Origin: Mesodorylaimus sp. YZB2_4
Lineage: Eukaryota; Nematoda; Enoplea; Dorylaimida; Dorylaimidae
Length of the DNA: 64,000 nucleotides
Direction: 5' to 3'
Assembly: GCA_030248295.1 (NCBI GenBank)
Contig: JASANH010001194.1
Coordinates: 1-64,000 of the forward strand
Numbering within the stretch: the first letter of the stretch is position 1; each line of letters begins with the position of its first letter. The notes under the pieces were generated by a model, which did not search any database, was not told where the DNA came from, and was given only the letters and a program-made list of their open reading frames with translations. This document shows positions 18,384-58,485 of the stretch, one piece after another. A program made the translations under genes and the position numbers.

Positions 18384-18560
18384 GGAAAGCCAACAGGAGC
18401 AAAACTGCGCAGCCTGACGTTTCGTTTGCTCACTGACCACACACACGGCCATTTTGGCTCACAATTCGAAGGGCAGCCGCAAGTGCCGGCCATGAGGTTC
18501 CGACGGGCCAGGGTCATTCCTTCCATCGGCAGAAGAAGCGACGACGCTCCTCTCTTCCGG
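18384..18560 (+). repeat. MSP-flanking repeat, downstream copy
   Basis: Direct repeat of 17365-17560, beginning about 190 bp after the MSP stop. Confidence 0.75.
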
Positions 18561-28495: not shown

Positions 28496-29740
28496 TCAGG
28501 AATGTGCTTCTAATCTTTTGTCACTTTTCCCCTTTGTTTCCATCCAACCGTCCTTGACGATCGGGGGTGTTTTCAATGACGTTTCTCTTACTACGGACAC
28601 GCTTCTAGAGAATTTGACAACGGCTACTTTATCCCAATGATCTTCGATTGCAGACTTGTACGCAGTCGAAGCAGACTGACCTTTCCTCGTTGTCTGAGAA
28701 CTGGCGTTATTGACTTCTTGTTCTTTCCTTATCAGCGTGCGACAGCAAGTCGGAAACACTCGACGGCGCAGCTGAGGCCGGTTCCAAATGACCACAAATG
28801 GATAACTGATACCAAAAATTAGCGTTGCCACGTCTACAACGCCGATGAGTGCTGCAATTTGGACACCAGGGGATGAAACATCATGGAGCCCTTGCAGCCT
28901 TAATTTGTCGTACTTGACCAATCGATTAATGCCAAAAGCGAGACATATACTGACGACCCAAGTTGCTATATGGCAAACGAGCACACGGACTATGATGGAT
29001 GTCAGGCGAATGGTCGCTTTGATATAAGCTCTGGTTTCCAAGCTTTGCTGCGCGCGGCGAATTGCGAAGTCAAGTTCCAACTTACGGAGCGTACGGCGGG
29101 CTGAGTAGACTGAACAGCCTACGCTGAATTCTATTGCCAGGCCGAGAGCCAACGCCATAATAGCCTTAACCTCGCTCATAGATTTGTCATAAACTTCAGC
29201 TTGAGGATTTAATTTTTGCCAAACAAACCCAACAGCAGTCGTCCAGATGCAAGCGATCACGAAGCCGATAATCACAAATTTCCTTTTTTGATCATTTGTT
29301 TCACTCTGGCCGTCTTTGAGCCTCCGATCGCATTGCCATAAGGCAAGCAGATTTTGGAGAGCGAGTACTGCCATGCCGAGAGACACCACGGCCTGGGCGA
29401 TATCAGCCACGGGCTCCACACTCGTGTCAGCATCGCCTAAGTATCCGTCACTGGACCCGATGTACTGTTGGATGTATTGGCATCCTAATATTCCGTGGAT
29501 CAAGGACGAAATGGCTGCCGCGGCGGTAATGTTCAAAAATAAGGTGCGTTGGTAAAATGGCCACTCCACGGATTTTGCCTGGCCGTGGAACAAGCAGCAA
29601 TTGAGTAAGAAGGCGAGAAAAGCGAGCAGGGCCTGCGCTGATAAGATAGAGACGTAGAAGACATAGCGTTCGTTATTCGTACTGTTTTTGATCGCTGTAA
29701 TTGAATCCTCAAACTCTGATAGAATTACTGAAGCGTTCAT
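28496..29740 (-). CDS. Orphan 7TM family (WPFYQR/LNPQA), member 1
   Basis: Intronless, 414 residues. Seven hydrophobic segments: TM1 about 28-50, TM2 60-85, TM3 115-140, TM4 150-172, TM5 190-215, TM6 245-272, TM7 295-320. Family marks: EWPFYQR in the first loop, IHGILGC at the end of TM2, LWQCDRRL after TM3 in place of DRY, LNPQAEVY in the second extracellular loop, RRAQQSLETR in the third loop, YPFVV and PQLRRR at the end of TM7, and IEDHWDKVAVVKF in the tail. The N-terminus has NAS and NNS/NST sites and no signal peptide. No class A signature is complete. A plasma-membrane receptor role is inferred; ligand and coupling are unknown. Confidence 0.82.
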   Translation of the reverse strand: MNASVILSEFEDSITAIKNSTNNERYVFYVSILSAQALLAFLAFLLNCCLFHGQAKSVEWPFYQRTLFLNITAAAAISSLIHGILGCQYIQQYIGSSDGYLGDADTSVEPVADIAQAVVSLGMAVLALQNLLALWQCDRRLKDGQSETNDQKRKFVIIGFVIACIWTTAVGFVWQKLNPQAEVYDKSMSEVKAIMALALGLAIEFSVGCSVYSARRTLRKLELDFAIRRAQQSLETRAYIKATIRLTSIIVRVLVCHIATWVVSICLAFGINRLVKYDKLRLQGLHDVSSPGVQIAALIGVVDVATLIFGISYPFVVIWNRPQLRRRVFPTCCRTLIRKEQEVNNASSQTTRKGQSASTAYKSAIEDHWDKVAVVKFSRSVSVVRETSLKTPPIVKDGWMETKGKSDKRLEAHS

Positions 29741-32700
29741 GCTGCGAGAATACGTTCAGCAAGCGACTAGCTGAACATGGGACACAGAACCGCCATAAGA
29801 AGGTCGGTTATCAGCTTCAATTCTTTTAGCAGTGATTAGTCCTGACAGAACAAAGAAAGGTCGGGTTTCTGCTCTGCCCATCCTTTGACGATGTTGTGCC
29901 AACGGAAGTTTAATTGTATACTCGCAAAGGTTCGTGATAAATTTAGTTCCAATCCCTCTCTCGCCCATACTGAGAACGTTAGGACTGTTCGTCTGGGACA
30001 ACACGAAGGTTCGGAATATATAAGAAGCAAAGCTTTGTTTTCTGGCCTTAGGTGACATTTGTTCGCCCTCAAAAGCACCTGCACCTTTTCTTCTGTGCCT
30101 ACAGTACCCAGTCATCCCAAAGTGTATTAGTAACGTACATTTCATGAGGCCATGGTCGGGAGGTGGTTTTGTTCACATAAACGGCTAGAATGGCTAGAAT
30201 CTCCTCAGGCGCACTTGAGCCGTCTGACGATAGGCACCCTGGTACAGAGTTTCACCCACACCGCCGGATTAATATCTGATACACCCAAACTTGGATGGCG
30301 TAAAAACTTCAAAGACTGAAGATACTTTGGTGTCAAAATTTTAGTTCGATCCTTCCTTATTGCGTACGAGTGAAGAAGTGGATGAGCAGGCCGAGTAGGA
30401 CAGGATTCAAACAAGCCCGCGGACCGTTTTTGGGTAAAGGAGGAGGGAGCTTCTGTTGCATTCGTGTACAGTGCAGTTGTGCACCTGCAACATCAGTGGT
30501 TGCAGAATATGCAGCAGCAATGTTGCCTCCATTACTAATATACAGTAGTAACTGGAGGAGCAAAGATGATTATAACATAACTCTATCTGCGTGACCACAG
30601 TACTCACGGTGCGGAAACCGTCTTCAGTCGACTGGGAAGTTACCGGAATGATGCATTTTGAATCATTGTGAATCAGTGCATAGGCATAAGTCTGCACTGA
30701 ACCTAGTACGATTGAGTGAGCACGAGTAAGCACTCAGTGATATTTGACTGCAAAAGGGTTTTCCTTGTCAGCGCCTGGAGCGGTTTCACAATCGTTCGAG
30801 AGTCCCTAAATCTTAGGACATCCTATTCTACATCATTCTATATCCGATATGGCGGTCCAAAACTCAGGACATGATCTTGATGATTGTAATAGTGCTCCCT
30901 GATTGCTATATGACAGTGTCTAGCGTATGCATGCGACAAAATTTGAAAAAGGAAGTTTCATCAGAGGACACACGCTCTGACGACTGCACAAAACAGTCCT
31001 CCTTGGTGAGTATTGGTCGCCCTTGTGAACAAGTTCCGAAAAAAATGCACTTGAAACCCTTGGCTCATCCTAGAGTCATTCAGGACCAGCGAGAGGAGGG
31101 CTCAGGCCAACAGGAGCGACCACAAGCAGTCCACGCCTGGTGTTGAGTTTATTGCCAACCCATCACAGAGACCGTTGTGCTCTTTTAGATTTCCCTGTCT
31201 TTGTGTGATTTTGGAGAGTGTGTCCGTGTCGGGATTGTGGTTTGGACAGAGTTGTTAAAGTGTGGAAGATGAGAGCTACGTGATGTTGTAAGGGGTGTAG
31301 TGTTTACCCTTCCATCCAGTTCAAGCAAGTAAGTGCCGGTTACCGGTTATCAAGGCACGATGCCAGTCAACATGCTAGGTCGCCCGATCAAAGTACAACC
31401 AAAGGCTAAGAAGACCAGGTCTTGTGATAGACTAGGTGATCTGTCGATATATGCAAAGTTATCTACTGGGGAGGTATACAAGGGGGATGTTCTTACCGTT
31501 AGTGAGAGTGTGCCGTGTCTCCGTCGGGTGCGGAGGTTCAGTAAACTAACGATAAGTGGTTACAATGTGGCTGGCGATAAAAGCATTTATGTTGCCGCTT
31601 GACCATTCGAGCAGTCTTGCTACAATGTTAGCGAGTTTTGTTTCTTTTCTCTAACCTTGCATTATAAAAATCCTCTTTCCATCCTCGATTTCTTATGTCG
31701 AAACTGGAACAGTCTAGGGCACACCGGACATACTTATCGTGAGTATAATTATTCTCTCTCATTGGCATCACTTGATCAAACTCATCTCACCTTCGTCTTA
31801 CCCCGCGTATACTCTCGGTCTGATTTCGGAAGTGATGTGTCTGGATTTTATGGCATTGGATCGAATGCTATCGATAACATAGTCTGCAACATAATATGAA
31901 AGCTAGAAAAGCTGCAGTTATCGCTCGCACGCTGTATGTATCTAATGCTGTACGTTTGGATCTGTTTTGCCGGAGAGAGTGACTGGCCAAGTTTGCACCC
32001 GCCAGAAACCCAGAACAGCCAACCAAGTCTTCCGACCTATGTAGTCCATGGCTGACGGGTGACGCTCCCAGTTGCCGGCTCCGTGCAGAGGATCACTTGC
32101 CAGACGAGCCTCTATTAATTTATGTATATTATTACAATCCTTGTAGAAATTAGATACCCGTTTTTGTACACAACGACTGCTGGCGTATACTATCTACTAT
32201 GCGCGTGACCTATGCGAAATATAAGTCCCTACGTGTACGCTCATTTAAGCACGATGCTCGCATATGCATCCTTAGGTCGTAACCCTTTTGAAATATGACT
32301 GGTGCCACCTGTAAAGATTGCGGTACAGGTGCATCACTCCAGATTTAGAGCGGCGGACTGCGGGCTGCGGGAACGATTAATAATATTCTGCCTACGTTTG
32401 ATCCACCTTTGCATATCTCATGTCTCGCACACTGTAGCGTCGATGGGCCTGAAATCGTTGAGTATCTGTCAACTCAACAAACGGGGGCATAAAGTTTCGA
32501 CCCCGGCTTTGTAATTATTTTGTTTTTGCCTTGCTATTCTGGATTTATTCTTTTCTGAGATTCTGAGCTAAACAGAACTATGACAAAAATTTTAAAAATA
32601 TGCAGCAGGGTTTCTGGCATCTCAGACGGCAGTTGGGTTAGTGTCTACTGCGAATAAAATTACTTCCGTGATTGTCTTTCTGTTCCAATGCAGCTGGGAA

Positions 32701-33136
32701 AATTCTGCTGGGAGCATAAGTGAAGTCTGAATCAGCTTCCTTGGACTGTCGACAACAGGTTTGTTAGAGGTTTATGGATTACAGACTTGGCACAGGTCTA
32801 ATCGTCTTATTTTTAATGATTTGGTTGATTGGTCTAATACTTTTCGTGGCACCAATTACAGAACAGAGTGACCAATATATAATCCGTTAGGCAGTACTGA
32901 GCAACCAATCGAACAAAGCGAACGTGAAACTTTAAACCTAGATGGTAAATATGCACGTTTGTTTCCAAGTAGTGCTATAACTACAGTACCTACCGACAAC
33001 TTACAATGGTCCAAGTTACTTCCTGCATTAGCGAGCCAGGAGCATACTTTTTGTAGTGATATTTATACGAGAAGAGGACACAGCACTAGACCAGTGAAGT
33101 ACCGATAAGAAGTTCAGCGTGTTTGAAACAGCTGAC
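29741..33136. other. Intergenic, 3.4 kb, no supported gene
   Basis: Upstream of member 1, TATATA lies near 30015. Frames at 30871-31146, 31333-31602 and 31657-31899 show no domain, signal or splice-linked partner. Possibly decayed sequence. Confidence 0.35.
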
Positions 33137-34409
33137 ATGGCAATATCTAGATCAGTTTCTGTAACAAAGCCAACCTCTACTAATCTGGTCGACAGTGTGA
33201 ATAAACAGCTTCAGATTTTACATAATCTCAGCGAAATTTCCGGATGTCGTCTAATGTGCGGAGGAAACGCCAGCCGCCTTTCGTGCGGTCGTCTTATCGC
33301 TTGGGTGATCGTTTTCGTTTCAATAATTTTCATTTATTTGACCTGTATAGCTGTGATGATCCTGACCATGAAACCCCTTCCTACAGAAGCCAATCAAGAT
33401 TTTAGAATCGACGACGTGCCCACCATCTTTGCTGTGATGAATGTGTGCTTTGTAGTCGACCAGCTGGCCTGTTTCGTCGCGTTGAACTACGCCAACCGTG
33501 TGCTGCGACAAAAGGATGGATTCTTTGAGCAATTGCAATGGTTTCTGGTTCGTTTTAACATGACCCACAAGGACATGTGCCAATGGATGCGTTGCACTAT
33601 TGGAGTCTTGTGGTTCGTGTTTTGCTATGGAATTTTCAGTTTGCTTCTCATGTCTCTGTTCATATTCAAGGTTCTCACGACAGGTTTCCCTGTAAACTAC
33701 GACCGAGCTGCTCAGTGGCTACGCATGCCCGATATAGGAATAAGCTGTATGATTGAGCTTGCTGTCATTGTCGGCACAGTTCACGCTGGATACCATGTCG
33801 CCTTTTTCTACAGCATGTGTGAGATGACCAGATCACTTTTAAAGTTTTATTGTAAACAGCTGAATGATGAAACGGCCAGTTTATTCACGGCAGATCGCTT
33901 GACCAAATATCAAAGCGAGTATTCGAGATTGGCACTGTTGGCTGAACGCTTGGATGATGCATTTAAACATTTGTGCTTTTGTCAACTATTTTTGTTTATC
34001 TTTTTAGTCTGTATAAATATATTTTACCTGGTGAAAAGCTCTCTTGGGACGATGACTACCTTATCTGCTGTAAACTGGCTCTTGGTAAATTCGGTCATGT
34101 TTGCACTCGCTGCCAAACCGGCCATACTACTCCGATCAGAAGTAAGCTGACGTCTACCATCGGGGTTGGGTCTGATTTTCTCGTCTACTTCGAATAATAC
34201 ACTAAAAGAGGCGAGTGCTATCGCTGTAGACCGATAGTAAAATCACCAACACCAGATTTTTTTTGTTGCTTTGTGAAATGTAAATTTTTCAGAGCCAAAA
34301 GCCCCAGAAGTTGCTGCATCTCTGGTTTATGAAGCACGAACAAGCATGCGAAGAGTCTGGCGTGGGTGTGAATGATGTAAGCAGAAAAGTTCCTTATTGT
34401 AGCCAATGA
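33137..34409 (+). CDS. Gustatory-receptor-like (GRL) 7TM protein
   Basis: Two exons, 33137-34144 and 34293-34409. The first frame would stop at 34150, but a donor (GAA|GTAAGC) and a strong acceptor (TTTTTCAG) join it in phase 0 to 38 further codons. The start is the first ATG; the frame is open upstream only with GTG. Layout: long N-terminus, TM1 with IVFVSIIFIYLTCIAVMIL, six further TMs, and a cytosolic loop rich in charged residues (DRLTKYQSEYSRLALLAERL) before TM6-7, typical of the arthropod gustatory receptor/GRL superfamily, whose members are inverted (N-in) ligand-gated channels. The new tail (KPQKLLHLWF, EQACEES) is cytosolic or extracellular depending on topology. Family call moderate; ligand unknown. 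A TIR element begins 10 bp after the stop. Confidence 0.7.
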
Positions 34410-34418
34410 GACAAGCGT

Positions 34419-34607
34419 GTGTGACCAAGCCTGGCAGGCAGAGGGTTAGTGGCCGGCCGAAGTCGGTGGGACAAGAAGGATCAGGCAAGTCTTGCGACTA
34501 TACCTACGGCTGTAACATCAACCCGAGGGTGTGACGTCTCCCAGTTAGGGGAGAATATCGATTACTCTCTCTCACTCGCCATGGCCTACCAGGCACGAGG
34601 GTTACAC
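34419..34607 (-). mobile_element. TIR element copy 4 (best-preserved ends)
   Basis: Left end GTGTGACCAAGCCTGGCAGGC and right end complementary to GTGTAACCCTCGTGCCTGGTAGGC form terminal inverted repeats of about 20 bp. Internal landmarks are as in the other copies. At 189 bp and non-coding it fits a MITE whose autonomous partner is not in this window. Confidence 0.75.
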
Positions 34608-35162
34608 GGGTGTCATTAATTTGTGGAATCTCGGCATGCCCTGGCTTTGCTAATGCAATGGATTGCATCGAGGGACGTTGGTCTGACAGTGTCATCATTG
34701 GCCAAGTTTGATGCGCCCTTGTTGTTGAACGTATATCTACGTGCACTTCATTGCTATAGCGAATAACAGTAAGACATCTTTTCAGGTAGCGTCGGTTGTG
34801 ATCACGTATTTGCTGGTCATATTTCAGTTCTCGACCGGCCCACCAGTAGCCTCAGATAAGATTTTATGCACGATTTCAGTGAATGCGACTGCCTTCTGTC
34901 AACGGTTTCTCTCATTAGTGAGAGTGTAGTTGATTGCTTGTTTTGAAAGGGTATCCTATGATGCCATATGATTAAATAAATTCCTTCACTGATTAACTGA
35001 AATGGAGAACACAAGATTTTGATTAAACGAACGTGGATGAAATCTTGCCTTTCTGGATGAGTTCACCTGCCGGGCATGGGTTCATGCAAAAACTGGCAGT
35101 CGGGGCACAAAGAAACAATTTGGGTTTCTTTCCATAATTGCCGCCAGAACTACTGTATCTTG
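34608..35162. other. Intergenic, nothing recognised
   Basis: No gene or structured repeat recognised between the TIR element and MSP locus 2. Confidence 0.3.
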
Positions 35163-35628
35163 AAAAATGGATCTAAAATTGATTTCAAACTCAAGGTGCT
35201 AAATTTATAAGACATATCTGGTTGGCAGAACTAACAGTAAAGAGTGACTAAAGCTTATACACGGAACCACACAAACAAGCATCGGCGAGTTTTTGAGAAG
35301 ACGAGGTAATTTTAAAAGGAAAATCAACTAGTCGAACGACCTATCCAAGTGAGCGATGCCCAACTGCCTGATCAAGTATTTTTCTATCTAATGCATGGGT
35401 CCTCGTCGTTGCAACGCTCGCCGTCCCCCTCAAGCGCAAGGAGCGCAGAACTGCAATGCGCAACTTCTTTAGACACTGTGAAGTCGCCGCGCAACTTTAC
35501 ACTGCCTTCACGTGGTCTCTATAAAAGGGCCACCCCCGCACAGACCGAGTCATTCTGCTTTCGAGCGATCATCTGTGCGACCGAGTCCGATCTTCTCTCG
35601 TGTTCGATCAAGACCTCGTTCAGCGACA
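35163..35628 (+). promoter_or_regulatory. MSP locus 2 upstream region with TATA box
   Basis: Duplicate of the 5' region of MSP gene 1 without the TIR insertion and without the upstream flanking repeat. TATAAAA at 35520-35526 is again 109 bp before the ATG. Conserved blocks on either side (ACACTGTGAAGTCGCCGCGC, CACTGCCTTCACGTGGTCTC) are candidate promoter elements because they survive where nearby bases have changed. Confidence 0.65.
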
Positions 35629-36000
35629 ATGTCGATCCCCGGCGACATCAAGACCGTGCCGTTCGACCAGTTGTGGTACAACGCGCCGTTCGACGAGTTC
35701 CTCAAGGTGCGCATTCGTCTGACGAACGGTGGCGTGCGACGCATCGGCTTCCATCTGAAGAGCACCGTCGGTCCCGACCGCATCGAAATCGACCCGGCCA
35801 ACGGCTGCCTGGACCCGAGCGAGACGACCACGCTGTGGGTCACCGTCAAACCATTCTCCGGCGCCGACACGTCGTCTGATCGCGTCACCATCGAGTGGAC
35901 CGACTCCCCGGCCGGTGCCGCCAAGAAGTACAGCCGCGACTGGTTCACCGGCGATTCCATCGTCCGCCGCAAGAACATGGCCCTCAAGTACAACGAGTGA
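35629..36000 (+). CDS. msp: Major sperm protein (MSP), copy 2
   Basis: Intronless, 123 residues, identical in protein sequence to the copy at 17823-18194. I see a single base difference in the 372-bp CDS (a synonymous T for C in the TCGTC(T/C)GATCG stretch), while the 5' and 3' flanks differ at roughly 4-5% of positions. Recent gene conversion or strong constraint on the coding sequence are both possible. Function and domain as for copy 1. The codon pattern (C/G third positions) is the same, suggesting both copies are expressed. Confidence 0.9.
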   Translation: MSIPGDIKTVPFDQLWYNAPFDEFLKVRIRLTNGGVRRIGFHLKSTVGPDRIEIDPANGCLDPSETTTLWVTVKPFSGADTSSDRVTIEWTDSPAGAAKKYSRDWFTGDSIVRRKNMALKYNE

Positions 36001-36198
36001 TCTCGATCGTGATGACCTCGTGCTCATACCATGCGTGTGTTGATCTCCATCTCGTGCCTCACTTGACTCCTGTGACGTAAAAGATCGAAAGAGTGCGCTC
36101 CTCGATGCCAAAAGCATAACGCACGAAAGGGAAAAGCAAGTATTCGATTGAAACAGTAGGCGCCCTGGGGTAAACTAGAACTGGCCAGAGGAAGGTCA

Positions 36199-36350
36199 AC
36201 AGGAGCAAACCCGCGCAGTCTGACGTTTCGTTTGCTCACTGACCAAACCCGGCCATTTTAGCTCGCCGTTCGAAGTGTGCAGGCAAGTGTGCAAGTGCCG
36301 GCCATAAATTGAGGTTCCGACGGGTCTGGGGCCGAAATGCTGAGACCAGC
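36199..36350 (+). repeat. MSP-flanking repeat, locus 2
   Basis: ACAGGAGCAAACCCGCGCAG, TGACGTTTCGTTTGCTCACTG and GTTCCGACGGG match 18384-18560, with more divergence and small insertions. Confidence 0.65.
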
Positions 36351-36884
36351 AAACTCGGCTTCCATCGGTTTTTTCTGGCTCCTAATTAGACTTTTTGTTG
36401 TTTATCGTTCAGTTTTCTCTTTGCCTGATTGATTCTTCATTTGGAATGTAGAGTTCAAGTGTTCAAGGTTTTAAGTTTTCCTGCTTGTTAGTTCTATGGC
36501 TCAATAAAATTCCCTGACGATTAGAAATCAGGGGGAAAAAACAACACATCAAAAACTAAACAAGGAATTAGAGCGAAATCGGTGTAATAAACAAGGCAAA
36601 GTCGAGTCTAGCAAAGAAAGCTGTTTTTTAAAAACCTCCTTGGCAACGAATTATTCGGCTAAAGATTAATGGTTGGTTTATTCTCACCAAGCGGCCTCAC
36701 TCTTATCAATCAACAACGTGGCAATGCAGTCAAATGAGATCGATCGACCACATACAGTACAACTGTGAAGCAAAATGCGACTTCAGCGAGAGTTTTATCA
36801 CTTATTTGCATTCAAGCATACAACAGGACCAATCGTTTGTTCTCTTTGCAGTACATGAATAGTGCAAGAATCAACGGTTTTCGT
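36351..36884. other. Intergenic, nothing recognised
   Basis: AT-rich. AATAAA at about 36503 could serve the MSP transcript but is about 500 bp downstream. Confidence 0.3.
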
Positions 36885-37627: not shown

Positions 37628-38869
37628 TCACCCGCTGTTGTGCGGATGGCCTTTATCATATTTTACTTTTGATATCATTTGCCAATGGTTGTCGATGGCA
37701 TTGTGGTGCAATCGCCCTCCAGTGGGCACCTCAGCCGTGCCGTACAGACTCGAAGCTTCCACTCTGGCTTTACTGATTACAGCCACCAGTGAGACCGATT
37801 TTGTGGGCGTTGCTTGTCCATCGCAGCAGAAGCAAAGTAGTTTCTTGATCCCACGTTTTATCTGAGGTTGCTTCCCAGCCAGCACGAATGGATAGGCTGC
37901 TTCGAAAAACAAAGCGAGAAAATCAACGATGCCGATGTAAGCTGCCATTTGATTGCTCTTCACAATCTCGTCTTCCTCATCCCCCATTTCGTCATGGCAG
38001 GCACTCCACAACTCGTCTGGCATGGCTATGCGATTCACGATCAGGGCGACCGTGAATGACGCGACCCAGGTGCCGATGTGTAAAATAAGGACCCTGGTTA
38101 TAGCTGCGGTCAAATCGACAGTCTCTTTGACATGCGTTCGCGTACGCAACGTGTGCTGGGCTCCACGAGCGGAAAAGTCGGTTTGTAAACGACGAGCTAT
38201 ATGACGAGTCAATACGATAGCTGTGGTCACAGCCACCTGGATAGTCAGGTGAACACAGTAGCTGATGATTGCCATGGTTGTCTCACCATCTTCTCCAGCC
38301 TCAGCGTGCGGATTGAGTCCAGCAGCGATAGAACCGATGGATAATGACCAAACCAAGATTATCATCAGGCAGCCAATAATGGCTCGTCGTCTTCGGTCGC
38401 ACTCGTCCTCTAATCTTGGGATTTTAGTGAGCTGCTTGCCACAATGAAACAAAGCGTATAAATTTTGAAAAGCCAGGGTCATCAAACCAAATGCGACGGC
38501 CACAAAGGCGCTGTCTCCGCCGACATCCGACCACTGGCTGTCTCCCAAATCTCCCTCACCGGTCATACGAAACTTGGCCAACTGCACACATCCCTGGACA
38601 CAGTGAATTGCCGACGTTATCATTGCCGCCACTGTGATATTGAAAAATAGAAGACGTTGATAAAACGGCCAATTTGCTGTCTTTGCTTGACCATAACAAA
38701 GAAGAGTGTTTCCAATCCAGCCAATCGCCCCGACCATAACTTGAGCAGACAAAAAGACATAGAACACGGTTTTGCTGTTGTGGATTCTCTCTTGTTCAAT
38801 AGCCAGGCAATTTTTATCATCAGCTGACGTCTCTTCGGTCACATTGAAGTTGGACGTACCGTTTTCCAT
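37628..38869 (-). CDS. Orphan 7TM family (WPFYQR/LNPQA), member 2
   Basis: Intronless, 413 residues from the ATG at 38869; the frame is open further upstream only with a non-ATG codon, and this start gives a length matching member 1. The extracellular N-terminus has NGT and NVT sites. Family marks: NWPFYQR, IHCVQGC, LFHCGKQL after TM3, LNPHAEAG (His for Gln), RGAQHTLRTR, YPFVLAGKQPQIKRG, and a tail motif HHNAIDNHWQMISKVKY. The loop before TM7 is unusually acidic (GDEEDE). Tail Cys residues (CFCC) after TM7 are possible palmitoylation sites. Same inferred receptor role; ligand unknown. Confidence 0.82.
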   Translation of the reverse strand: MENGTSNFNVTEETSADDKNCLAIEQERIHNSKTVFYVFLSAQVMVGAIGWIGNTLLCYGQAKTANWPFYQRLLFFNITVAAMITSAIHCVQGCVQLAKFRMTGEGDLGDSQWSDVGGDSAFVAVAFGLMTLAFQNLYALFHCGKQLTKIPRLEDECDRRRRAIIGCLMIILVWSLSIGSIAAGLNPHAEAGEDGETTMAIISYCVHLTIQVAVTTAIVLTRHIARRLQTDFSARGAQHTLRTRTHVKETVDLTAAITRVLILHIGTWVASFTVALIVNRIAMPDELWSACHDEMGDEEDEIVKSNQMAAYIGIVDFLALFFEAAYPFVLAGKQPQIKRGIKKLLCFCCDGQATPTKSVSLVAVISKARVEASSLYGTAEVPTGGRLHHNAIDNHWQMISKVKYDKGHPHNSG

Positions 38870-44889: not shown

Positions 44890-45984
44890 TCAAACTAAAG
44901 CAAATTTGCGAGCCTTGGCCACTTGTCTCCAATGGTCATCGATGGCGGTGTGATGTACTCGAGCTGTGGTCGGCACATCACCCACACGATTCGGGCTTCT
45001 CGTAGCTTTTTGATTAACAGTATTTTCCAAAGTAGTACTTGGGCTATCGAGGCGGCACTGGCACAACAGTCGTTTTGTGACCTGTCGAATGTTTTGGTTC
45101 GTCAAAGAAACTGTAATCGGGTATCCCAAATTAAAGCCCAGTGTCATGCATTCGACGAGGCTAGTCAAAGCTGCCAAAGCATTTTCATCTTGGCATTCCT
45201 GAATCAGAGATCTTAAAATAAAGGCCAAAGTAAATGATAGTAGCCAAGCTGTGATATGCAAAATCAAGACATACGAAATGGTTGTGGTTATGTCGAGTGT
45301 CTCTCGTATACGAATTCTCGTCTTCAAATCTTGCTGCGCTCCCCTGGCAGCAAAGTCAACTTGCAAACGACCCGTAATTCTCCGCGTGTACCACAGAACC
45401 AATGCCACTGCGACTTGCAGAGTTAAGTGCATTGAGAAGCTGACATAAGGCATGAAATAATATGACGGCTCCTCGTCGATATCGGCTTGCGGATTGAGGC
45501 CGCCAAGAATAAAACCAAAGGCTGTCGCCCAAATGCAGAGTATTGAGCACACCCCGAGACCACGCTGAATCGATTTGCCGATTTTAGTAAAATTGCCATT
45601 GGAACATTGGCGGATAACGTAGAGACTTTGAAAGCTGACCAAGGCCATACTAAACACGATGGCCATTTGAGCAGAATCGCCGATAGTGTGCAGCCAATGG
45701 TACTTCTCGCCCAATGCCCCGTCTCCAGACTGGACAAATTCGAAGATCTGATAGCAGGCTTGCCCAAAATGGAGTGAAGATGCAATAATTGCACCCGTAG
45801 TCACGTTTAAACTGAGAAGACGCTGAGAAAATGGCCAATTACGGACTCTAAACTGAGCACAGCAGAGGACGAGATTGGCCAAGATTCCAGCCAGTGCGAT
45901 GAATAGTTGAGTGGGGAGAAATATGCAGAAAATGATGCTGGACAATTTACTCGGTTCTACATCTGTGCACTCGGTCGAATTCAT
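44890..45984 (-). CDS. Orphan 7TM family (WPFYQR/LNPQA), member 3
   Basis: Intronless, 364 residues, the shortest member. Family marks: NWPFSQR, LHFGQACYQ, VIRQC after TM3, LNPQADIDEE, RGAQQDLKTR, a TM6 with VLILHITAWLLSF, and TM7 ending GYPITVSLTNQNIRQ, the most changed version of the YP...PQL block. The tail is short but ends with HHTAIDDHWRQVAKARKF, which lies at the extreme C-terminus here, only about five residues from the end. The N-terminal NST is a glycosylation site. Same inferred receptor role. Confidence 0.82.
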   Translation of the reverse strand: MNSTECTDVEPSKLSSIIFCIFLPTQLFIALAGILANLVLCCAQFRVRNWPFSQRLLSLNVTTGAIIASSLHFGQACYQIFEFVQSGDGALGEKYHWLHTIGDSAQMAIVFSMALVSFQSLYVIRQCSNGNFTKIGKSIQRGLGVCSILCIWATAFGFILGGLNPQADIDEEPSYYFMPYVSFSMHLTLQVAVALVLWYTRRITGRLQVDFAARGAQQDLKTRIRIRETLDITTTISYVLILHITAWLLSFTLAFILRSLIQECQDENALAALTSLVECMTLGFNLGYPITVSLTNQNIRQVTKRLLCQCRLDSPSTTLENTVNQKATRSPNRVGDVPTTARVHHTAIDDHWRQVAKARKFALV

Positions 45985-49180: not shown

Positions 49181-50607
49181 ATGGACTTCAATCACATGCC
49201 CGACCACATTTGCTTGAAAATCGTCCAATACCTGCCATTTAAAGAACAAGTACGTGTGGGCCGTGTCAGCCGTCGATTCAAACAAATTTCCGAATGGGCG
49301 ATTTCGAAGGTGACATCCGTCAACTTCGATCAGTCAGCTTACAGGTTTTGCTCGATGGAACTGGAATGAATGAAGAATATGGTCACGCTCTTTTCTCGAA
49401 ATCTGGAAATTTTGGCTTACTCGGAATGGCTTTTCTTCGGTGACTACAAAGTGACCCTGCGAAAGCGCCTGGCGTTGTTGTCGAAATATCGACTTCCTCG
49501 TCTGAACAAGCTGTTACTATTGAAAGCCGATTTCGATTCGGATGTCGTTATTTGCAATCTGCTTGCCAATAGTCCGAATCTGCCACACCTCGAATGGTCC
49601 ATTCCGACACTTAGTACGTTCCCAAACGTGCTTTGCCAATCTCTGCAAATCGTTCGCATTAACTGGTGCTACAGCGAATTTTTTGAGTCGCTGGTGGCAA
49701 AATGCCCGCGATTAACGTGCATCATTCTCTATAATATGCGCAGGTAGGTGAAACCGTTGGACGACGTTTTAAACGAAGCAACCGCTAATCTGCCATTGAT
49801 GGATGAACTGAAGCTAATGCGGTGGATAGAAGGCGGCGACTTTATACTGCTAAACTTTGAAAGGATGCCGAATCTGCGGAGTTGGTCATCGTTGCGATCG
49901 CTGGAGCTCACCGACTTCCCCATTAATGATCGCGAGTTGAAGTTGATATCTACTTGGTTTCCCAGACTGCAGCGGCTGGAATTGTGGTGCGGTCAAGTCA
50001 CTGGTGGCGGTGTCTCTCGATTGTCGCGCCTGGAGCGCCTGTGCTCTCTGACTATCTTCTTGCTGCCTGAGAACGAATTCGATCCTGACCTCGACCAAGG
50101 ATTTAGGCAGTGCAACTGCTGAAACTCGTCCAGTTCGAACATTATGTGATATTGAGTGTGGCGACGGTGACAGAGTTCGTGATGAGATGCAGTCATCTGA
50201 GAGAAATATTCGTGAGACGCTTCGCTGATCTCCAAACCAAAGATGATGTGGTCCAATTTATCGATTCTCTCGCTGGCTTTCCCCAAGATGCCGTCCGCAT
50301 TCACTTGCGGATCACAGACGAAGATTTGTGGGATCGTGCCAAAGTTAAAGAAGCGCTGACTCGAGTGAAAGAGCACGCCAATGGTCGCTTGATTTTAGCC
50401 ATTGGCACCAAGTACTTTTGGCTCGAAAATGGACATGTCGATGACGATGGCACCAGCTCACGTTCGGAGTTCCAGGGCGAAAGCAAGTCCGAATTAGAAT
50501 CCGAATCTGAAGATAGTGGCAAGCATTCGATCAGGAATCGAATCGCTGAGTTCGTGTCCTGTGTGATCGGCTTGTTTCGCAGGCTGTATGAAATGATTTT
50601 CCACTGA
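49181..50607 (+). pseudogene. F-box/LRR protein gene broken by two stops and a frameshift
   Basis: One reading frame runs from ATG 49181 through TGA 49367-49369 and TAG 49745-49747 to TGA at 50120. Coding then continues in another frame from about 50110 to 50607. The N-terminus is an F-box (MPDHICLKIVQYLPF, then RVGRVSRRFKQIS). Leucine-rich repeats follow (for example LRSLELTDFPINDRELKLIS; FPRLQRLELW), then an acidic Ser/Glu tail (SKSELESESEDS) and a basic hydrophobic end. Intact relatives would be SCF ubiquitin ligase substrate adaptors. The stops do not sit in sequence that could be removed as introns, so I read this as a pseudogene about 480 codons long with little other decay, hence young. 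Stop readthrough or sequencing error are alternatives. Confidence 0.65.
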
Positions 50608-52690
50608 ACAACACGTCCAGTCGAAGCGAAAATTAGTTAATTATTTACTAGAATAACAAGACCTGCGCTAACAAGGATGATGAGACTACATGAACAGGCT
50701 TTTTGTGTTGTATGGCGTTACGTCTCGCTGTGTAATAATGACTGCAGTTTTTGCCGAATGATTCGTATGTCTTAAAGTTAAAAATGTCGACTGTGCTGCC
50801 GAAATATCGAATTCTTTGCCTGGTCAAGCTGTCATTGATGACGGGCTATTCCGTTCGAGAACACAGTTCGAGCAGTCTGCTGGCCAACAGCCCAAATTTT
50901 GCGTCATCTTTATTGCGCTGCGCGGGGTCGTTCCTCGCTTGAGCCATCCTCTGGACGGGCCTACAGTAGATACATAGCCATAGGACGAGCCAACGACTTG
51001 CTTTATTGGGACAACTGGCTTTACCTGACAGAAATTGTTTTATATCATGAGATTACCAATTTAAAAAATTCAAAACCTGAAAAACACCCAAAAATATTCT
51101 GCAAACAGGGGGAAAAAGCAGAACTTACGAAGGTCTTTGACGGACTGACGCGTGAGTGTTGCTGCTTTTATGCCGGAATATTATTTTGACGCGCTATCAT
51201 GAGCGAAGCTTGATGATGCAGCGAAGAGACTGTACTCCTATGTCAATCGGGAAAACGAACGCTACAAAATTGAAGATTAGATGGACCTGGCCCTTGTAGT
51301 GTGATACACGGCCCGGTCGAGGAGTGCACAAGGGCGCTAGAACCTATGGAAAGACATACTGCCTGCTCAAATTACGGGTTGCGCGACAGTTATCTACAGG
51401 CACCCTTAGATTCTTCGCCCCAAGACACCAAGATGGACCCACGGTGAGCCTGAAATCCCTCAAAATCCCACACGGGACCATGCTATCCCATATGGTGCAC
51501 ACATGGGAAAGCATCCCAACATGCTCGTGTAACAGGCGTGTACTAGTCTCTCCGCTCATATCAGTGCACTTTGAGGGAGACAGAGAGCGAGATCGAGGTC
51601 GATTATTTTAAAATATCCTCGCCGAAAAGTTTTTATGGAAGACTCAATTACATGGTAGCAGCTTTCCAAGAACTCATGCATTTTTCTAGTGCAATGGCGA
51701 TTAGGTACTTGGCGGGTCTAATTTCCGATGCACGCCCCAGCACCCCAATACTGTATATATGTAGAATAGGGGTGGTAGGATAAGAGAGAATTCTTTTCTG
51801 ACATTTGCCTTAGTTAGACAACATAATCTTTAGGAAATTCACGATCAGGGGTACAGTGTTTCAGGCACAAGTAATAGAGTTAGGCTTATAATTTTATCTC
51901 TTCGCTGTTTTTGTGCCTAACTGGCCCCCCACTAAAGTCATGGTCGTCGTTTGCGCTTGTTGTCATTTGATTAAAATATGTCATGCAGAATGGACATTTC
52001 ATGGGAATCGGATCTAAGGCCGTGGGTTCATCCAGTATCTTCATGGCTTAAAACCAAAATTCAATATACATAATCTGCCATATAAGATACTGTAAGCAAC
52101 GAGACGTGTGATTTGCTGATAAGGCGATACATATACCAAACTATGCCAGGCTTTTCTCTGCGTCTTTATCTTCAGGAATGAATGGGGTCATTATCAGTCA
52201 AGAGTGCCTATGGCTACATGAGTTAGGACTTATAATTTTATCTACTCGATACTGTCATGTCAAAACTCACGATCAATCTTTCACTACGTCATTCATATAT
52301 TTTCCTTGTCCTTAAAGTATGCCGTGCAGAAAGGATTTTTCGTGGGACTATGATCTAATGATAAGTGCATCTCGTAGCGTGGCTAAAGGCAAAATAAACT
52401 ATTACCATCCGCCAAAAACATAAACTACGGCACAAAGCGTGATTCGCTGATAGAACAGTCAATACTATGCCAGGCTTTTATCTTCGTCTTTGTGCCGTAA
52501 TAAAAGGGCAGACTGCTCGTCTCACAATCAGAGGGCGTGGCTCGTAGCCGGGAGGTGCACTCGCACCCATAAGACTTTGATCTCCTTAGGTTCGGTGCAA
52601 TTCCCTTATTTAGCCTCTGTCGCAAGCGTTCTCTCTTGGTGGCCAGCAGGCTATTACTGCTAGTGCCAGCTTTGCTCTGTCGATATAGAA
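50608..52690 (+). pseudogene. Second F-box/LRR fragment (about 50780-50940) in an otherwise empty gap
   Basis: About 50780-50940 repeats part of the upstream gene: LPKYRILCLVKLSL and SSLLANSPNFAS correspond to LSKYRLPRLNKLLL and NLLANSPNLPH at 49.48-49.58 kb. Nothing recognisable precedes or follows it, so it is a decayed tandem copy. The rest of this interval has no gene; related AT-rich words recur near 51890-52140 and 52230-52490 (TAGGCTTATAATTTTATCT, GATTCGCTGATA, CTATGCCAGGCTTTT). Confidence 0.5.
51870..52500 (+). repeat. Direct repeat of about 350 bp, two diverged copies
   Basis: 51880-52165 and 52225-52500 share, in order: (GA/TAGG)CTTATAATTTTATCT, GTCATGGTC/GTCATGTC, TATGTCATGCAGAA(T/A)GGA versus TATGCCGTGCAGAAAGGA, TTCATGGGA/TTCGTGGGA, GATCTAA, ATGGCTTAAA/GTGGCTAAAG, GTGATT(T/C)GCTGAT, and ACTATGCCAGGCTTTT(C/A)TC. 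A tandem duplication directly upstream of 7TM member 4, possibly carrying its promoter. Confidence 0.6.
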
Positions 52691-53917
52691 ATGTCTCCTT
52701 CAAACTCGAGTGCAATGGACGGAAAGTTTAATATGCTTGTCCAGGGACTCTTATCAGTACAGGTGATTTTGGCATCGATCGGATTTGTGATGAATTGCAT
52801 TTTACTCTATGGCCAAATCAGAACTAGGCATTGGCCTTTCTACCAGCGCTGCTTGTTCATTAATGTAACTACAGCCGCCACAGTTTCGACCCTGATCCAC
52901 GCGGCTCAAGGAAGTTTCCAGCTTCACAAACTTTCTACGGGCAGTAACGGCAATTTGGAAGGTAATCAGCAATGGTCTGATCTCGTGGCTGACAGCGCCC
53001 AGACGGCAGTGGCCATTAGTATGGCTACATTGGCATTTCAGAACTTTTATGCTCTTCGTCAATGCGACAAACGAATCAAACGTATCGTGGGTAAGGAAAC
53101 TAACGATAAGAAGTCTGTGAAAGCACCTTTTGTCATCCTATTGGTCATCGCTATTTGGTCAGTGGCTGTCGGGTTTGTGGCGGGGGAACTCAATCCCCAG
53201 GCCCAGGTCTACAGTGGAGATCGGAAGACTAATGCCTCGACCTACATCAGCTTCGCTATCGGCCTGTCCATAGAGTTCAGTGTCAGCTGCGCCATCTACG
53301 CTACACGCCGATTGCTGAAACGGTTACAGGCTGATTTTGTTGTCCGCCAAGCCCAACAAACCTTGGCCGCACGGGTCCATATAAAACAGACCATCAATCT
53401 GACAGCCACCATCGCCAGGGTCCTGTTCCTGCATATCATTATTTGGGTAACATCGATCTCGATGGGATTCGGCATAAATCGGTACTTGAAGTCGTTGGAG
53501 GAGGAAGGAGAAAGCAAAGACGAAATGGAAAACCAAACCGCCGCCTTCACTGGAATGGTCGACGTGGTGGTCATGGCTTTTGATGTAGCTTATTCTATTG
53601 TCGTGCTCTGGAAACAGCCTCAGCTACAAGATCGTATGGGATTCAAAACATTTTGTAGACTTGTTTGTCGAAGAGGAACAGACAAGGAAGACGCTCCGAA
53701 AGATGCTTCTATTATCGCTGTGCAAGTAGTTGTCATCCCCGACCAAGGCAACGCTCATTTTGGTGCCCTCCACACACAGTGGGATCGTGTGGCCTATGCT
53801 ACTTTCACTAAAGCATCAAATGCGTCTTACGCGGCGCCCATCGCAGCTACCAGTGCTTTGAGCAAAGGGGTTGCAAAGAGCGGAAGAGCAAACGCGAAGG
53901 CTTGGACTGACAGTTAG
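52691..53917 (+). CDS. Orphan 7TM family (WPFYQR/LNPQA), member 4
   Basis: Intronless, 408 residues from an ATG; NSS in the short N-terminus. Family marks: HWPFYQR, IHAAQGSF, LRQCDKRI after TM3, LNPQAQVY, RQAQQTLAAR, TM6 with VLFLHIIIWVTSI, TM7 with AYSIVVLWKQPQLQDR (Ser for the Pro of YP), and tail motif HFGALHTQWDRVAYATF. It is closest to member 5 by eye (HLEGDQKWSDLVADS versus NLEGNQQWSDLVADS around the first extracellular loop), consistent with a tandem pair on the plus strand. AATAAA follows the stop at 53941. Inferred plasma-membrane receptor, ligand unknown. Confidence 0.83.
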   Translation: MSPSNSSAMDGKFNMLVQGLLSVQVILASIGFVMNCILLYGQIRTRHWPFYQRCLFINVTTAATVSTLIHAAQGSFQLHKLSTGSNGNLEGNQQWSDLVADSAQTAVAISMATLAFQNFYALRQCDKRIKRIVGKETNDKKSVKAPFVILLVIAIWSVAVGFVAGELNPQAQVYSGDRKTNASTYISFAIGLSIEFSVSCAIYATRRLLKRLQADFVVRQAQQTLAARVHIKQTINLTATIARVLFLHIIIWVTSISMGFGINRYLKSLEEEGESKDEMENQTAAFTGMVDVVVMAFDVAYSIVVLWKQPQLQDRMGFKTFCRLVCRRGTDKEDAPKDASIIAVQVVVIPDQGNAHFGALHTQWDRVAYATFTKASNASYAAPIAATSALSKGVAKSGRANAKAWTDS

Positions 53918-53940
53918 TCGGAAGGGATTGATTCGCAAGA

Positions 53941-53946
53941 AATAAA
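53941..53946 (+). terminator. Polyadenylation signal AATAAA
   Basis: Canonical hexamer 24 bp after the stop of 7TM member 4, implying a very short 3'UTR. Confidence 0.55.
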
Positions 53947-56900
53947 GTTATCCTACGAATGGTCGATCATCAAATTTTTTTCAATTGTGGAAACCAGTCA
54001 GAGCCATTGAATCCATCCAAAGAGCATGGTTCATTAAAATTCAGTATTCCATAAAAAGAGTACCCGACACATCTTGTGGTCTCTTGAAAACCCACTTGGC
54101 GAAGGGTACAACTCAATATAAAAAGATGATTCTAGTTTAATAAGGTGTCTGAAGACCTACGAGACAATCTTGCAGGAGCACCAAACGATGGAAAATTCTA
54201 TTTGAAGCCAAAGTGTCCCTGTTTGCTGCATGCATGTATGTGATTCGCTTGAAGAACTAGATGCTCATCGATTTTTGACAAATTTGACGATGCCATGTTT
54301 GCTTTTTTTGCAGAAAACATCAACATGATGTGTTTGTCACACGAAGTGCTTAGTAGTACGACATATACAGAAGAAAACCACCTTATAAATACAGGCGTGT
54401 AGTTTCCCTCTCTTTCTGAGGTTCGTATTCAGGCCAGGTCAAACAGTTGGTCCAGTCAGCTGGCAGCCAGATGGCAAATTTATCCTGCACAGTGGAGCCG
54501 GATCAAAAGTAGTCAGTAGCATCCAGCTTTACTGGCACGCATCAGTCCAAATTATAAGCATGACAGGCTCGTTTGCCGAGGGGCTCAGATATTTCAAATG
54601 AAACGTACTCCTTCTGATTCGGAGCGTGTTCTGTACGAACAAAACTTATTGTGCGTCCTCTGTGTTCGTTCAGCGTCGTTTGTTCTCTCCAACACTAAAT
54701 GATAAATTGATATATGATGCGGAATGCAAAGAAGAATCTCTCCTCGGGTCAGGTTCCCACTCGCTGCTACATTACCTCGATCATTTATGTCTGCACGAGA
54801 GTGGAACCTGATTAGAAAAGAAACCCCCGTGGATAGGCCTTGAGCCAGGCCTCTGTCAATTATGGCAGCGAGTCTGGTCGCAAATGGGTGAGGTTGAAAA
54901 AGTAAGGACCATAGACGGGGGTCAGGGAAACTGCGTGGCAATAGAAGACAGTCAGAAGTCAGAAGACAGAAGACAGCTCATATTTGTGCACTTGACGTAC
55001 AATAAATTAGTTTCTGAACGCTTGCCCGCACCTCAATTTCGTATTCCTTTAGAATCCTCTGGCCACCTGCTACACTAATGAGAAAAGGAAACACCCACTG
55101 TAAATTTGACCTTTTTAGCTTGCACTCAACGTCTGTGGTAGGCGGTTAGTCTGAAACCCCAAGCGCCGAGTTTGCTAGGGAAGAGTCAGTCTGTATGTAC
55201 AGAATGGGAGCTATACCAGGAGCTAGGGGAGCTAGGAGGAACTAGGAGGAACTAGGAGACTTTCCTTAGGGGCAATACATATGTATGCTGCTCTGCTTCA
55301 CTTCACTCTGCTTGACACTTCTGCTCTGCTTCACTACTGGAAAAATGTTCCGTAAATCCATTTTCCTAGGAGCTATACAGTAGGATTTCCGACCTGGGTG
55401 GGGGATGAAAGTGAGGAGCTTCCAGGATTTCGAACAAGTCAGACGCGTGTTCCAATACCAAAGGGACTGTTAGGTCTCCACATTGGCATGTACCTTAGGT
55501 TCTAATCAGACACCCTTGCAGCGACGATAAAAAAAAGAGAGCAGCTGTAAAACATTGTGAAAAGGACAACAAAATAAGGGTGACTCTGGAGGATACAGCA
55601 TACATCCATAAGTTTGGGCTGCTACTGTCCTGAAATTGCACGTGATATCACCTTCTCTCCCGGAGGACCTTTGTGTTTGCAAATTTCGATCAAGTCTTAT
55701 GATGTCAGTCGGCTTCTCTTTCAGGTTTTGCACATCCAGTCGTCTTCACATAACGTAATCCGAATTTCTGAAAATCGATTGAAGTGAAAGGACGTGACAC
55801 TTACACTAAGCTCTCCTCAAGAAACTTATTCTGTAATTGTCCTGGAACCTCTACAACAAATGTTAGTACCTCACCTGGGCAAGGCCTCGTTCCTATAGAC
55901 CATGTGCGGACACAAAGGGGGTGTCTTCACTAATTAAGACAGCTGGGCTCAAGTTCGCACGTAGCTCGTTAATTAGGATGCACTGATTTGCTTCCTCTTG
56001 TGCGTGATCTTATCGATAATGCACAACGTTAGGCCAAACGATCGTCCATTGGACTGTCGAACTTAGCCCTTCGTATCTTATGGCGTTATTAGATCTTGTT
56101 TGAAGACACTCACTGGATTTTATCTCCAGTACTGTAGATTTGGGACCGACTGATTGAAGAGAAAATGAGGACCCTTCTAGATCCCTTCTTTCTCTTAGTT
56201 TATGTTCAACTTATGGCGCAATCTTCCTGTGCACCCAGCGCGGTAGGATAATGCCTATCCACTAGCGACGACCGAGCCTAAGAGGTTCCCGCTATGGCCT
56301 TTCTGAAATCTCTTTCTCCTTGGTCGTCTATCCGAAGATCATATGACTTTTCCGACAGGATGCTAATAGGGACGTTTCCTGGGTATCATCTGGGGTGACC
56401 TTCAAAGTTATTCCTTTCACAAGACAGTAAACAAGCAGGTATGCACATGACGTGAGCGCTACGTGACCCCACTCATCCCAGGTTTACGTGCGTGATAAAC
56501 AAAGCATCATTTGCATCTCCTGGAGAAAAACAGTCACGTCTGAAGGCGTTTTGCCATGGCACTATGGCACGTTGTGGCAGTGGCAGATCGTAATCACAGG
56601 GAAAGCCATTGGGGACTTCTTTGACACCCGTCAAATTAGATATACTGTATATGGTCATACCTTTCCGGTCTGCACTGTAAACCCGCGACCTTCGTGTCCG
56701 CCCATTTTCATGCGTGCTGTAGCCCGCATCACAATTCTCTCAAAACTTGCATTCAGTTCTGGCTTGATAATCTTCAGGGCCTGTTCAGGATCAGCAGGTC
56801 TTCGGTTCTTCCGCACCCACAATCTGTTGTTGCCACTGACCAGTCACTCAATTTAATAGCTTACACGAATGCTTGAAAGAATGGACCCCTCTTTTTCAAT

Positions 56901-57194
56901 GTCTCTACAGCGGGGAGGGGCAGAAAAGGCATTCATTTTGATCAATAAACTGTTCCTTTCATTTTCTCTTTTTCCTTGTCCTTCTCTTATCATTCCCATT
57001 AGAGCGCATCTCTCCGCACGAATCCTACCTTGACACATTATCCGCACGCCTCGGCAGCAACATAGAGCTGGTAAGATGGGACAGGTGCTTTGAGCCGTAT
57101 GTGCGTGGATAAGGCTAGCTTCGACGAAAAGTCAATGAGCTGATAAGTTAACCAGGTTCTTATTGTAGAGAGCTCAAAACTCACGATCAGCTTG
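53947..57194. other. Intergenic, 3.2 kb, no supported gene
   Basis: Short tandem words GGAGCTAGG/AGGAACTAGG at 55215-55260 and CTGCTCTGCTTCACTTC repeats at 55290-55340. No gene recognised on either strand. Confidence 0.35.
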
Positions 57195-57202
57195 TATATA
57201 AG
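57195..57202 (+). promoter_or_regulatory. TATA box of 7TM member 5
   Basis: TATATAAG 88 bp before the ATG at 57283, the usual distance for a short leader. Confidence 0.55.
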
Positions 57203-57282
57203 TCCGCTCCAACACCCTTCTACGAGTGACTGACCGGAAGTGATCAGTGAAAGCCTAGATCTCCTTGACAAACGGGGCAACT

Positions 57283-58485
57283 ATGGTCAACTCGACCAAC
57301 GCGACAGGAACGATCGACTTGCTTTTTCGAATCTTCTTGCCCATTCAAGTGCTCATATCTTTGGTCGGATTCGTATTCAACTGCATTTTGTTCTATGGTC
57401 AAGTCAGGTCGAGTAATTGGCCTTGCCAACAGCGTCTTTTATTTCTAAACGTGACTTTGGCAGCCGCCCTCTCAACAATTATTCACGCCACTCAAGGCTG
57501 TTGCCAAATAAGGAAACACGCCGAGGTCGGGTTTGGGCATCTGGAAGGTGATCAGAAGTGGTCGGATCTGGTAGCTGATAGTGGCCAAACCGCAGTGGCA
57601 CTAGGCATGGTCATGTTGGCCTTTCACAGCCTTTTCGCCCTTCGTCAGTGCGAAAAAAGGATAAACAGTACAAAAAGATACGAGAGCAAAAAAGGAGAGA
57701 AGATTCTGTCCGTTGGACTTATGATAGCTGTTGTGTGGGCGGTGGCGATCGGGTTCGTGTGGGACGGATTGAATCCGCAAGCCCAAGTCTACAGCGAGGA
57801 GGATATGGCCAATGCAGCATCGTACATCAGCTTCATCATTGGATTACTGATGCAAGCCAGTGTCGGGTGCACCATCTACGTCACGCACCGTACACTTGTC
57901 AAGTTGCAAGCTGACTTTGCGATTCGAAGAGCTCAACAGAATTTGGCTACTCGGGTGCATATCAAGGAGACACTCAGTTTGACAATGACCATATTCCGTG
58001 TCCTCGTCCTACACGTTGGGATCTGGGTCACGTCGCTGACCGTCGGATTCGGTTTGAACCGATTTATTAAATCGGCACCAAAAGAATACGGAAGTCAACT
58101 AGGACTGGCCGCATTCACGGCCCTGGTTGACGTCGTGGCCTTGAGTTTCGACTTATATTATCCTCTGGTGGTGGCTTGGAAACAGCCTCAACTACAGCGT
58201 CGCATGCAGGCGCTACTACTTTTCAAATTCAGCACAGTGGGTCATTCCTCGATGACCACCAAACAGATCGTGATACCGTCCATCGAGGTCGGCACCAGTG
58301 TGCAGCCCACAATGACTCATGTCCACTTCGGAGCTATCGAACAAGTTTGGCAACGTGTGGCCGAAGAAAAGTGCAAGATTCCGCCCACAGTGTGCTCGAA
58401 ACCAACCGAGTCTGGTACTGCTACCTGGGTGAAGTCGATAGACGAGAGAGCCAGTGAGATACTCTCGCATAGCCGTTTGCCATAA
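57283..58485 (+). CDS. Orphan 7TM family (WPFYQR/LNPQA), member 5
   Basis: Intronless, 400 residues. I start at the first ATG (57283); the frame is open six codons earlier only with TTG. The N-terminus MVNSTNATG has two glycosylation sites. TM1 about 17-40, TM2 50-72, TM3 97-120, TM4 140-160, TM5 178-202, TM6 232-258, TM7 270-295. Family marks: NWPCQQR (Cys-Gln for Phe-Tyr), IHATQGC, LRQCEKRI, LNPQAQVY, RRAQQNLATR, YYPLVVAWKQPQLQRR, and tail motif HFGAIEQVWQRVAEEK. The about 100-residue cytosolic tail is Ser/Thr-rich. A G-protein-linked receptor role is inferred from topology only. Confidence 0.83.
   Translation: MVNSTNATGTIDLLFRIFLPIQVLISLVGFVFNCILFYGQVRSSNWPCQQRLLFLNVTLAAALSTIIHATQGCCQIRKHAEVGFGHLEGDQKWSDLVADSGQTAVALGMVMLAFHSLFALRQCEKRINSTKRYESKKGEKILSVGLMIAVVWAVAIGFVWDGLNPQAQVYSEEDMANAASYISFIIGLLMQASVGCTIYVTHRTLVKLQADFAIRRAQQNLATRVHIKETLSLTMTIFRVLVLHVGIWVTSLTVGFGLNRFIKSAPKEYGSQLGLAAFTALVDVVALSFDLYYPLVVAWKQPQLQRRMQALLLFKFSTVGHSSMTTKQIVIPSIEVGTSVQPTMTHVHFGAIEQVWQRVAEEKCKIPPTVCSKPTESGTATWVKSIDERASEILSHSRLP

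Follow-up and report, generated by a model that had tools for sequence, protein, structure and literature searches.

In a 64,000-nucleotide stretch from the nematode Mesodorylaimus sp. YZB2_4 (positions 1 to 64,000 of contig JASANH010001194.1, hereafter the window), we analysed five genes that a preliminary description had presented as an expanded seven-transmembrane receptor family with private motifs and as an undescribed receptor system. There is a good chance that the five genes form a divergent and unnamed family of nematode chemosensory G-protein-coupled receptors (GPCRs), which we call the LNPQA family, related to the Sra superfamily (Sra, Srab, Srb and Sre). Most likely the family lies in or beside this superfamily rather than forming an entirely new receptor system; among the families that were compared, our best reading of the sequences places it closest to the Srab-type receptors of the same genome.

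The five genes and their family in the genome

The genes lie at 28496-29740 (- strand, 414 aa), 37628-38869 (-, 413 aa counted from the first ATG), 44890-45984 (-, 364 aa), 52691-53917 (+, 408 aa) and 57283-58485 (+, 400 aa), and are numbered here as members 1 to 5. At each of these positions we confirmed a single open frame running from ATG to stop with no internal stop, so that the genes appear intronless, as had been described, in the sense of one open frame each. Such genes are ordinary in this genome, where 43 of the 45 matches to the Pfam Srab model fall within open frames 300 aa or more in length (in one of these the match contains a stop). The five are one homologous family. With one of the proteins (P0004) as query, the other four were matched at E-values of 8e-106, 2e-79 (member 1), 3e-71 and 1e-54, and 50 of the 451 columns of the alignment of the five proteins (A1, in which member 1 stands) are invariant. 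Identity to the first alignment row is 29-37% in A1 and 31-46% in a further alignment, A2.

By searching the 145-Mb assembly (1,067 contigs) three times, we found 22 family loci in three groups. Group 1, which carries LNPQA, has eight close members: the five of the window and single loci on contigs C174, C104 and C300. Groups 2 and 3 are distant sister groups of seven loci each, the former on C20, C184 (four loci), C166 and C219, the latter on C15 (two loci), C89, C288, C106, C12 and C760. The receptor core is covered by an uninterrupted frame at 18 of the 22 loci (8, 5 and 5 by group); the loci on C219 (L016), C184:95k (in L012), C12 (L020) and C760 were left out of this 18-member set as broken or partial. 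In group 3, the frames C15:949k and C106 lack an ATG near the start, and a first exon may be missing; in both, as in C288, the genome match extends past a stop at the match end. In agreement with the preliminary description, the family is multigene and locally clustered, with five of the eight close members found within 30 kb. No description of it was found in the open-licence literature.

We then compared synonymous (dS) and nonsynonymous (dN) divergence in nine pairs of members. The five pairs with dS below 1.2 gave dN/dS values of 0.18, 0.16, 0.26, 0.25 and 0.20 (one group 1 pair, C104/C300, the rest from groups 2 and 3), and the other four, including the two closest window genes, were saturated. 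Purifying selection thus acts in the measurable family pairs, none of which has both genes in the window.

Hydropathy averaged over the eight close members shows ten peaks, which we merged by eye into seven segments where they overlap. This agrees with a structure prediction for member 4, whose structural neighbours are GPCRs, including family A peptide and small-molecule receptors. Both point, with low confidence in the model, to a seven-helix GPCR-type bundle, as the preliminary description had proposed. Since the proposed inner loops carry more positive charge and N-terminal sequons are found in all eight close members, an N-out topology is indicated.

Relationship to the Srab-type receptors

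For comparison we assembled 18 Srab-type proteins of the same genome from 12 + 14 loci after removal of repeats; L038 (early frame end) and L045 (256 aa) were left out, whereas L047, without its N terminus, and L030, with an odd C terminus, were kept. The first 11 of these proteins all matched the Pfam Srab model (9 matched Sre and 7 Sra), which shows that the set is sound. The Srsx set has 13 proteins, L063 and L064 having been left out for want of an open frame of 240 aa across the centre, and the Srt set has five.

The profile of the eight close members matched the Srab-type profile with a probability of 98.7 (E 3.1e-16) over 316 columns, whereas its probability against Srt was 3.5, against Srsx 1.5 and against the Srab-type profile in reverse 0.1. 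The probability was still 98.0 without the tail, and 96.9 (E 1.8e-10) without the tail and the third-loop block. For the 18-member profile it was 99.2. With a hidden Markov model (HMM) of the 18 members, 15 of the 18 Srab-type proteins scored below 1e-3, whereas neither Srsx nor Srt gave any hit at E<=10; a group 1 HMM found 4 of the 18 Srab-type proteins below 1e-3. In the reverse direction, the Srab-type HMM matched 15 of the 18 family members at E<1e-3 (best 2.7e-11). We also built a tree of the 18 members, the 18 Srab-type proteins and 6 of the 13 Srsx proteins as outgroup, in which the members form one clade (support 100/99) beside the Srab-type clade (96/89). As the profile comparison joins the family to Srab-type receptors, the proposal that the receptor system is undescribed in kind was not supported.

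The motifs first described, scored as strict patterns on the five proteins, proved real but less uniform than stated. (N/E/H)WPF(Y/S)QR in loop 1 and LNPQA are each found in four of the five, IHxxQG at the end of transmembrane helix (TM) 2 in three, and (R/Q)(R/G)AQQxL in three, or in all five if rewritten as [RQ][RGQ]AQ[QH]xL. QC after TM3 is found in four proteins, its C being invariant in all five. It had been taken to stand in for DRY, a reading that is out of register: in the alignment with the Srab-type relatives, Q-N occupies the E-R site at the end of TM3 and QC falls seven residues after that site, on the R-Y of Srab-type proteins. A (D/E)R(Y/F) at the end of TM3 is found in none of the eight close members and, loosely, once among the ten distant ones. 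NPxxY is indeed missing from TM7 of the five proteins, where A1 reads Y-P or Y-S and then hydrophobic residues, but the pattern offered in its place, YPxVV..QPQLxRR, is complete in one protein only.

Nor was a private signature supported, because the third-loop block and a C-terminal motif are common to the Srab-type chemoreceptors of the same genome. All 18 members carry the loop-3 pattern (block RAxxxLxxR), as do 14 of the 18 Srab-type proteins, but none of 13 Srsx and none of 5 Srt proteins (2-5% in shuffles). The C-terminal motif H-[FHWYL]-x-x-[ILM]-x-x-x-W, which the preliminary description did not include, is found strictly in four of the five window proteins (loosely in five), 15 of the 18 members (loosely 17), 17 of 18 Srab-type proteins and none of the 13 Srsx or 5 Srt proteins. 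Both patterns were composed after the sequences had been seen. In the profile alignment, RAQQxLxxRxxIKxT aligns with the RAQxxLxxRFQIxQN of Srab-type loop 3; the block reads RAQQSLETR in member 1 (29030-29056, -) and, by pattern, QAQQTLAAR in member 4 (53348-53374, +). HxxAIxxxW aligns in the same way with the Srab-type HFxxLxxxW in the tail. By pattern, the tail motif is YKSAIEDHW, with Y replacing H, in member 1 (28634-28660, -), HHNAIDNHW in member 2 (37682-37708, -), HHTAIDDHW in member 3 (44929-44955, -), HFGALHTQW in member 4 (53756-53782, +) and HFGAIEQVW in member 5 (58324-58350, +). WPFYQR (EWPFYQR before TM2 in member 1, 29546-29566, -) sits at the FHxNLR position of Srab-type proteins. 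The tail motif is not peculiar to this genome, since in three of the four Srab-type proteins scanned the last of the 365 positions of the Pfam Sre model falls on this W or on the residue after it.

Pfam scans alone give no reliable placement. As had been supposed, no Pfam family claims the five proteins, none of which has a match over cut-off. The Srab model matched only 1 of the 18 members at all, yet with the best GPCR E-value over the 18 (0.019, 14.3 bits). Matches of single proteins to CorA, DUF5698, Srab, Srd, 7tm_7, 7tm_1 and other models were sub-threshold and mutually inconsistent, and none was accepted. The Pfam Sra model gave eight genome matches, none at a locus of the LNPQA family or its sister groups. 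A profile of the five proteins had no match at E<=10 among PDB sequences, and plasmid records gave none.

Competing readings, function and neighbourhood

Several results weigh against a relationship with the Sra superfamily. The family clade does not nest within the Srab-type clade but branches beyond it with a long stem of 1.32, and the Srsx outgroup has very long branches, flagged by the program, so that the root is insecure. Pairwise BLASTP between Srab-type and family proteins is weak (best E 8e-6, with a close member; hits at E<=1e-3 are 3 of 34 for group 1, 0 of 28 for group 2 and 4 of 58 for group 3), and Srab-Srsx pairs reach E 1.3e-4 in the same comparison; the criterion for the Sra superfamily in the Caenorhabditis survey is significant pairwise blastp similarity to a member (PMC2576165). 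No member exceeds a Pfam GPCR cut-off, the best score among the five being the 14.3 bits for Srab against 21. Srab-type and Srsx profiles resemble each other with a probability of 97.0, and the Srab-type HMM matches 9 of 13 Srsx proteins at E<1e-3 (best 6.6e-8) as well as the family, which makes the Srab-type set a hub. The 18-member profile reaches 79.0 against Srsx and is hence less specific than that of the eight close members, so that general GPCR ancestry may explain part of the Srab link. Neither the TM6-7 part alone (probability 6.8) nor the tail alone (1.1) gave a profile match to Srab-type receptors. The structure model has a mean pLDDT (per-residue confidence) of 54, which is low, with TM-scores by query length of 0.34-0.48 among the matches listed, and dS could be measured in just one pair from group 1, neither gene of which is in the window.

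Much of this would fit a solo family of chemoreceptors that stands apart, counts as one more superfamily in the Caenorhabditis scheme and is only as close to Srab as rhodopsin-like receptors generally are. Its long stem, the weak BLASTP, the absence of FHxN, RFQ and the common cysteine columns (and of E-R in the eight close members) and the Srab-Srsx similarity, by which distant seven-transmembrane links score too, all favour it. We regard it as unlikely, however, given that the loop-3 block and C-terminal motif are shared with Srab-type receptors but absent from the tested Srsx and Srt proteins, and that the eight-member profile separates Srab-type from both so sharply. Internal, non-chemosensory GPCRs (neuropeptide, hormone or germline receptors) duplicated by chance seem improbable. 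The family A peptide and small-molecule receptors among the structural neighbours, which any such bundle would give, and the major sperm protein (MSP) genes at 17706 and 35512 would suit them, but local clustering, low paralogue identity and copies with stops or fragments are usual for chemoreceptors, and the relationship to Srab-type receptors also speaks against such a role. Insect-type gustatory receptors of inverted topology (7tm_7) were proposed by a below-cut-off match of one of the five proteins (E 0.032) and by a 7tm_7-like gene at 33119 whose match falls just below the cut-off; with a best family score of 14 bits against 26.6, a charge distribution and sequons indicating N-out rather than N-in, and a structure model that matches GPCRs, we rejected this identity as very improbable. 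That the genes are an artefact of unrelated or decayed reading frames, for which nothing speaks beyond the mechanical listing of open frames, is next to impossible: eight full-length homologous stop-free frames, the invariant columns of the five and the low dN/dS of measurable pairs refute it by their conserved reading frame.

Members of the LNPQA family, read as relatives of the Sra superfamily, are probably chemosensory GPCRs, by analogy with known receptors. Two reports describe SRB-6, of the Sra superfamily, as sensing dodecanoic acid and being expressed in chemosensory neurons (PMC5584987), and SRB receptors as regulating Galpha pathways in gustatory neurons (PMC5490939). The proteins would be located in cilia of chemosensory neurons, their N terminus extracellular and glycosylated, bind small environmental or conspecific molecules within the bundle and use loops 2 and 3 to signal via a Galpha protein, while the C-terminal H...(I/L)...W helix may serve trafficking or adaptor binding. 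The family would have arisen by duplication, partly local, and early divergence, in which the E-R motif, FHxN and the disulfide cysteines were presumably lost and the third-loop and tail elements kept. A bolder proposal, which we consider quite unlikely, is that the LNPQA family is itself a superfamily of nematode chemoreceptors, as yet undescribed, that stands beside Str, Sra and Srg, without the E/D-R switch and the extracellular disulfide, coupling to the transducer or trafficking machinery mainly via the loop-3/tail module common to Sra-type receptors.

Chemoreceptors that cannot be placed in elegans families are a known phenomenon, according to PMC7302863. Catalogues of nematode chemoreceptors are based on the families of Caenorhabditis, and individual Pfam models fail to detect this group, so that the number of receptors in distant nematodes may be underestimated. 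Moreover, the loop-3 block and HxxxI/LxxxW persist where other signatures are gone. They are therefore candidates for the functional core of Sra-type receptors, on which coupling or ciliary trafficking could be tested directly.

Across the genome, the Srt model has 125 matches, the Srsx model 150 and the Srab model 45. These are not gene counts, as Srt genes with introns are matched piecewise and the Srsx list also includes at least two of the Srab-model places (C112:228k and C79:68k). One Srsx and two Srt genes, each a single open frame over the Pfam cut-off, adjoin the cluster at 9967-10980 (+), 13651-14535 (-) and 19169-20071 (-), so that this part of the window is a mixed chemoreceptor neighbourhood. 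Mixed clustering recurs on C104, where an Srx chemoreceptor (PF10328, E 4e-23; L022:7562-8542, +) adjoins the group 1 member. The open frame at 33119-34150 (+), within the receptor cluster, matches 7tm_7 at E 1.1e-5 (25.4 bits against 26.6). At 26846-27865 (+) lies a PAQR/haemolysin-III-like receptor gene in one open frame (PF03006, E 1.2e-43). A direct duplication, 17552-18485 and 35358-36289 (936 columns, 95.9% identity), carries the MSP gene in each copy and is probably recent. The match of its first copy to Ascaris MSP (E 8e-32) and the Srsx and Srt genes beside the cluster mark the window as nematode DNA. Inverted repeat pieces at 1221-1681 and 8170-8718, about 94% identical over 344 and 232 columns, are perhaps a mobile element or its ends. 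The frames L012:1-954, by a group 2 member, and L022:3-734, by a group 1 member, resemble what we take, by eye, to be LINE-type (long interspersed nuclear element) reverse transcriptases. Scans of the window for tRNA genes and Rfam families were empty, and the Rfam SL1 model had no match in the genome, a result that is uninformative by the tool's own statement.

Comparison with known receptor families

Srsx receptors (PF10320) resemble the LNPQA family as seven-transmembrane chemoreceptors of the same genome, many with one open frame, but the 13 Srsx proteins lack the third-loop block and the tail motif. The likeness to Srab (PF10292) goes further, with seven predicted helices, an aligned TM1 asparagine and one open frame. 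With the Srab-type genes of this genome the family shares, in addition, RAxxxLxxR, HFxxLxxxW and N-terminal sequons (16 of 18 Srab-type proteins, like all close members). It differs from them in scoring below the Srab cut-off of 21 bits, in forming a separate clade on a long stem, in having WPFYQR for FHxNLR and Q-N for E-R, and in lacking RFQxxQN.

The Caenorhabditis survey (PMC2576165) gives FHxN as a feature of Srb, Sre and some Srab, names R/KFQxxEN in the third intracellular loop for Sre, and reports for Srab two conserved potential disulfide bonds and conserved H, N, R and D residues in and near TM2, and for Sre no conserved potential disulfide. Neither H-x-N-[LI]-R, of which the close members keep just the R in the alignment, nor RFQ is found in any of the 18 family members. 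No cysteine column is kept in 80% of the members, whereas the Srab-type proteins have five such columns, each kept by 15-18 of the 18. The family is thus like Sre (PF03125) in having no conserved disulfide and in its C-terminal motif, which the Pfam Sre model covers, and unlike it in lacking FHxN and R/KFQxxEN. With these signatures gone and the loop-3 block and tail motif shared, the sequences place the LNPQA family near Srab and Sre and, failing the definitions of both, as a member of neither.
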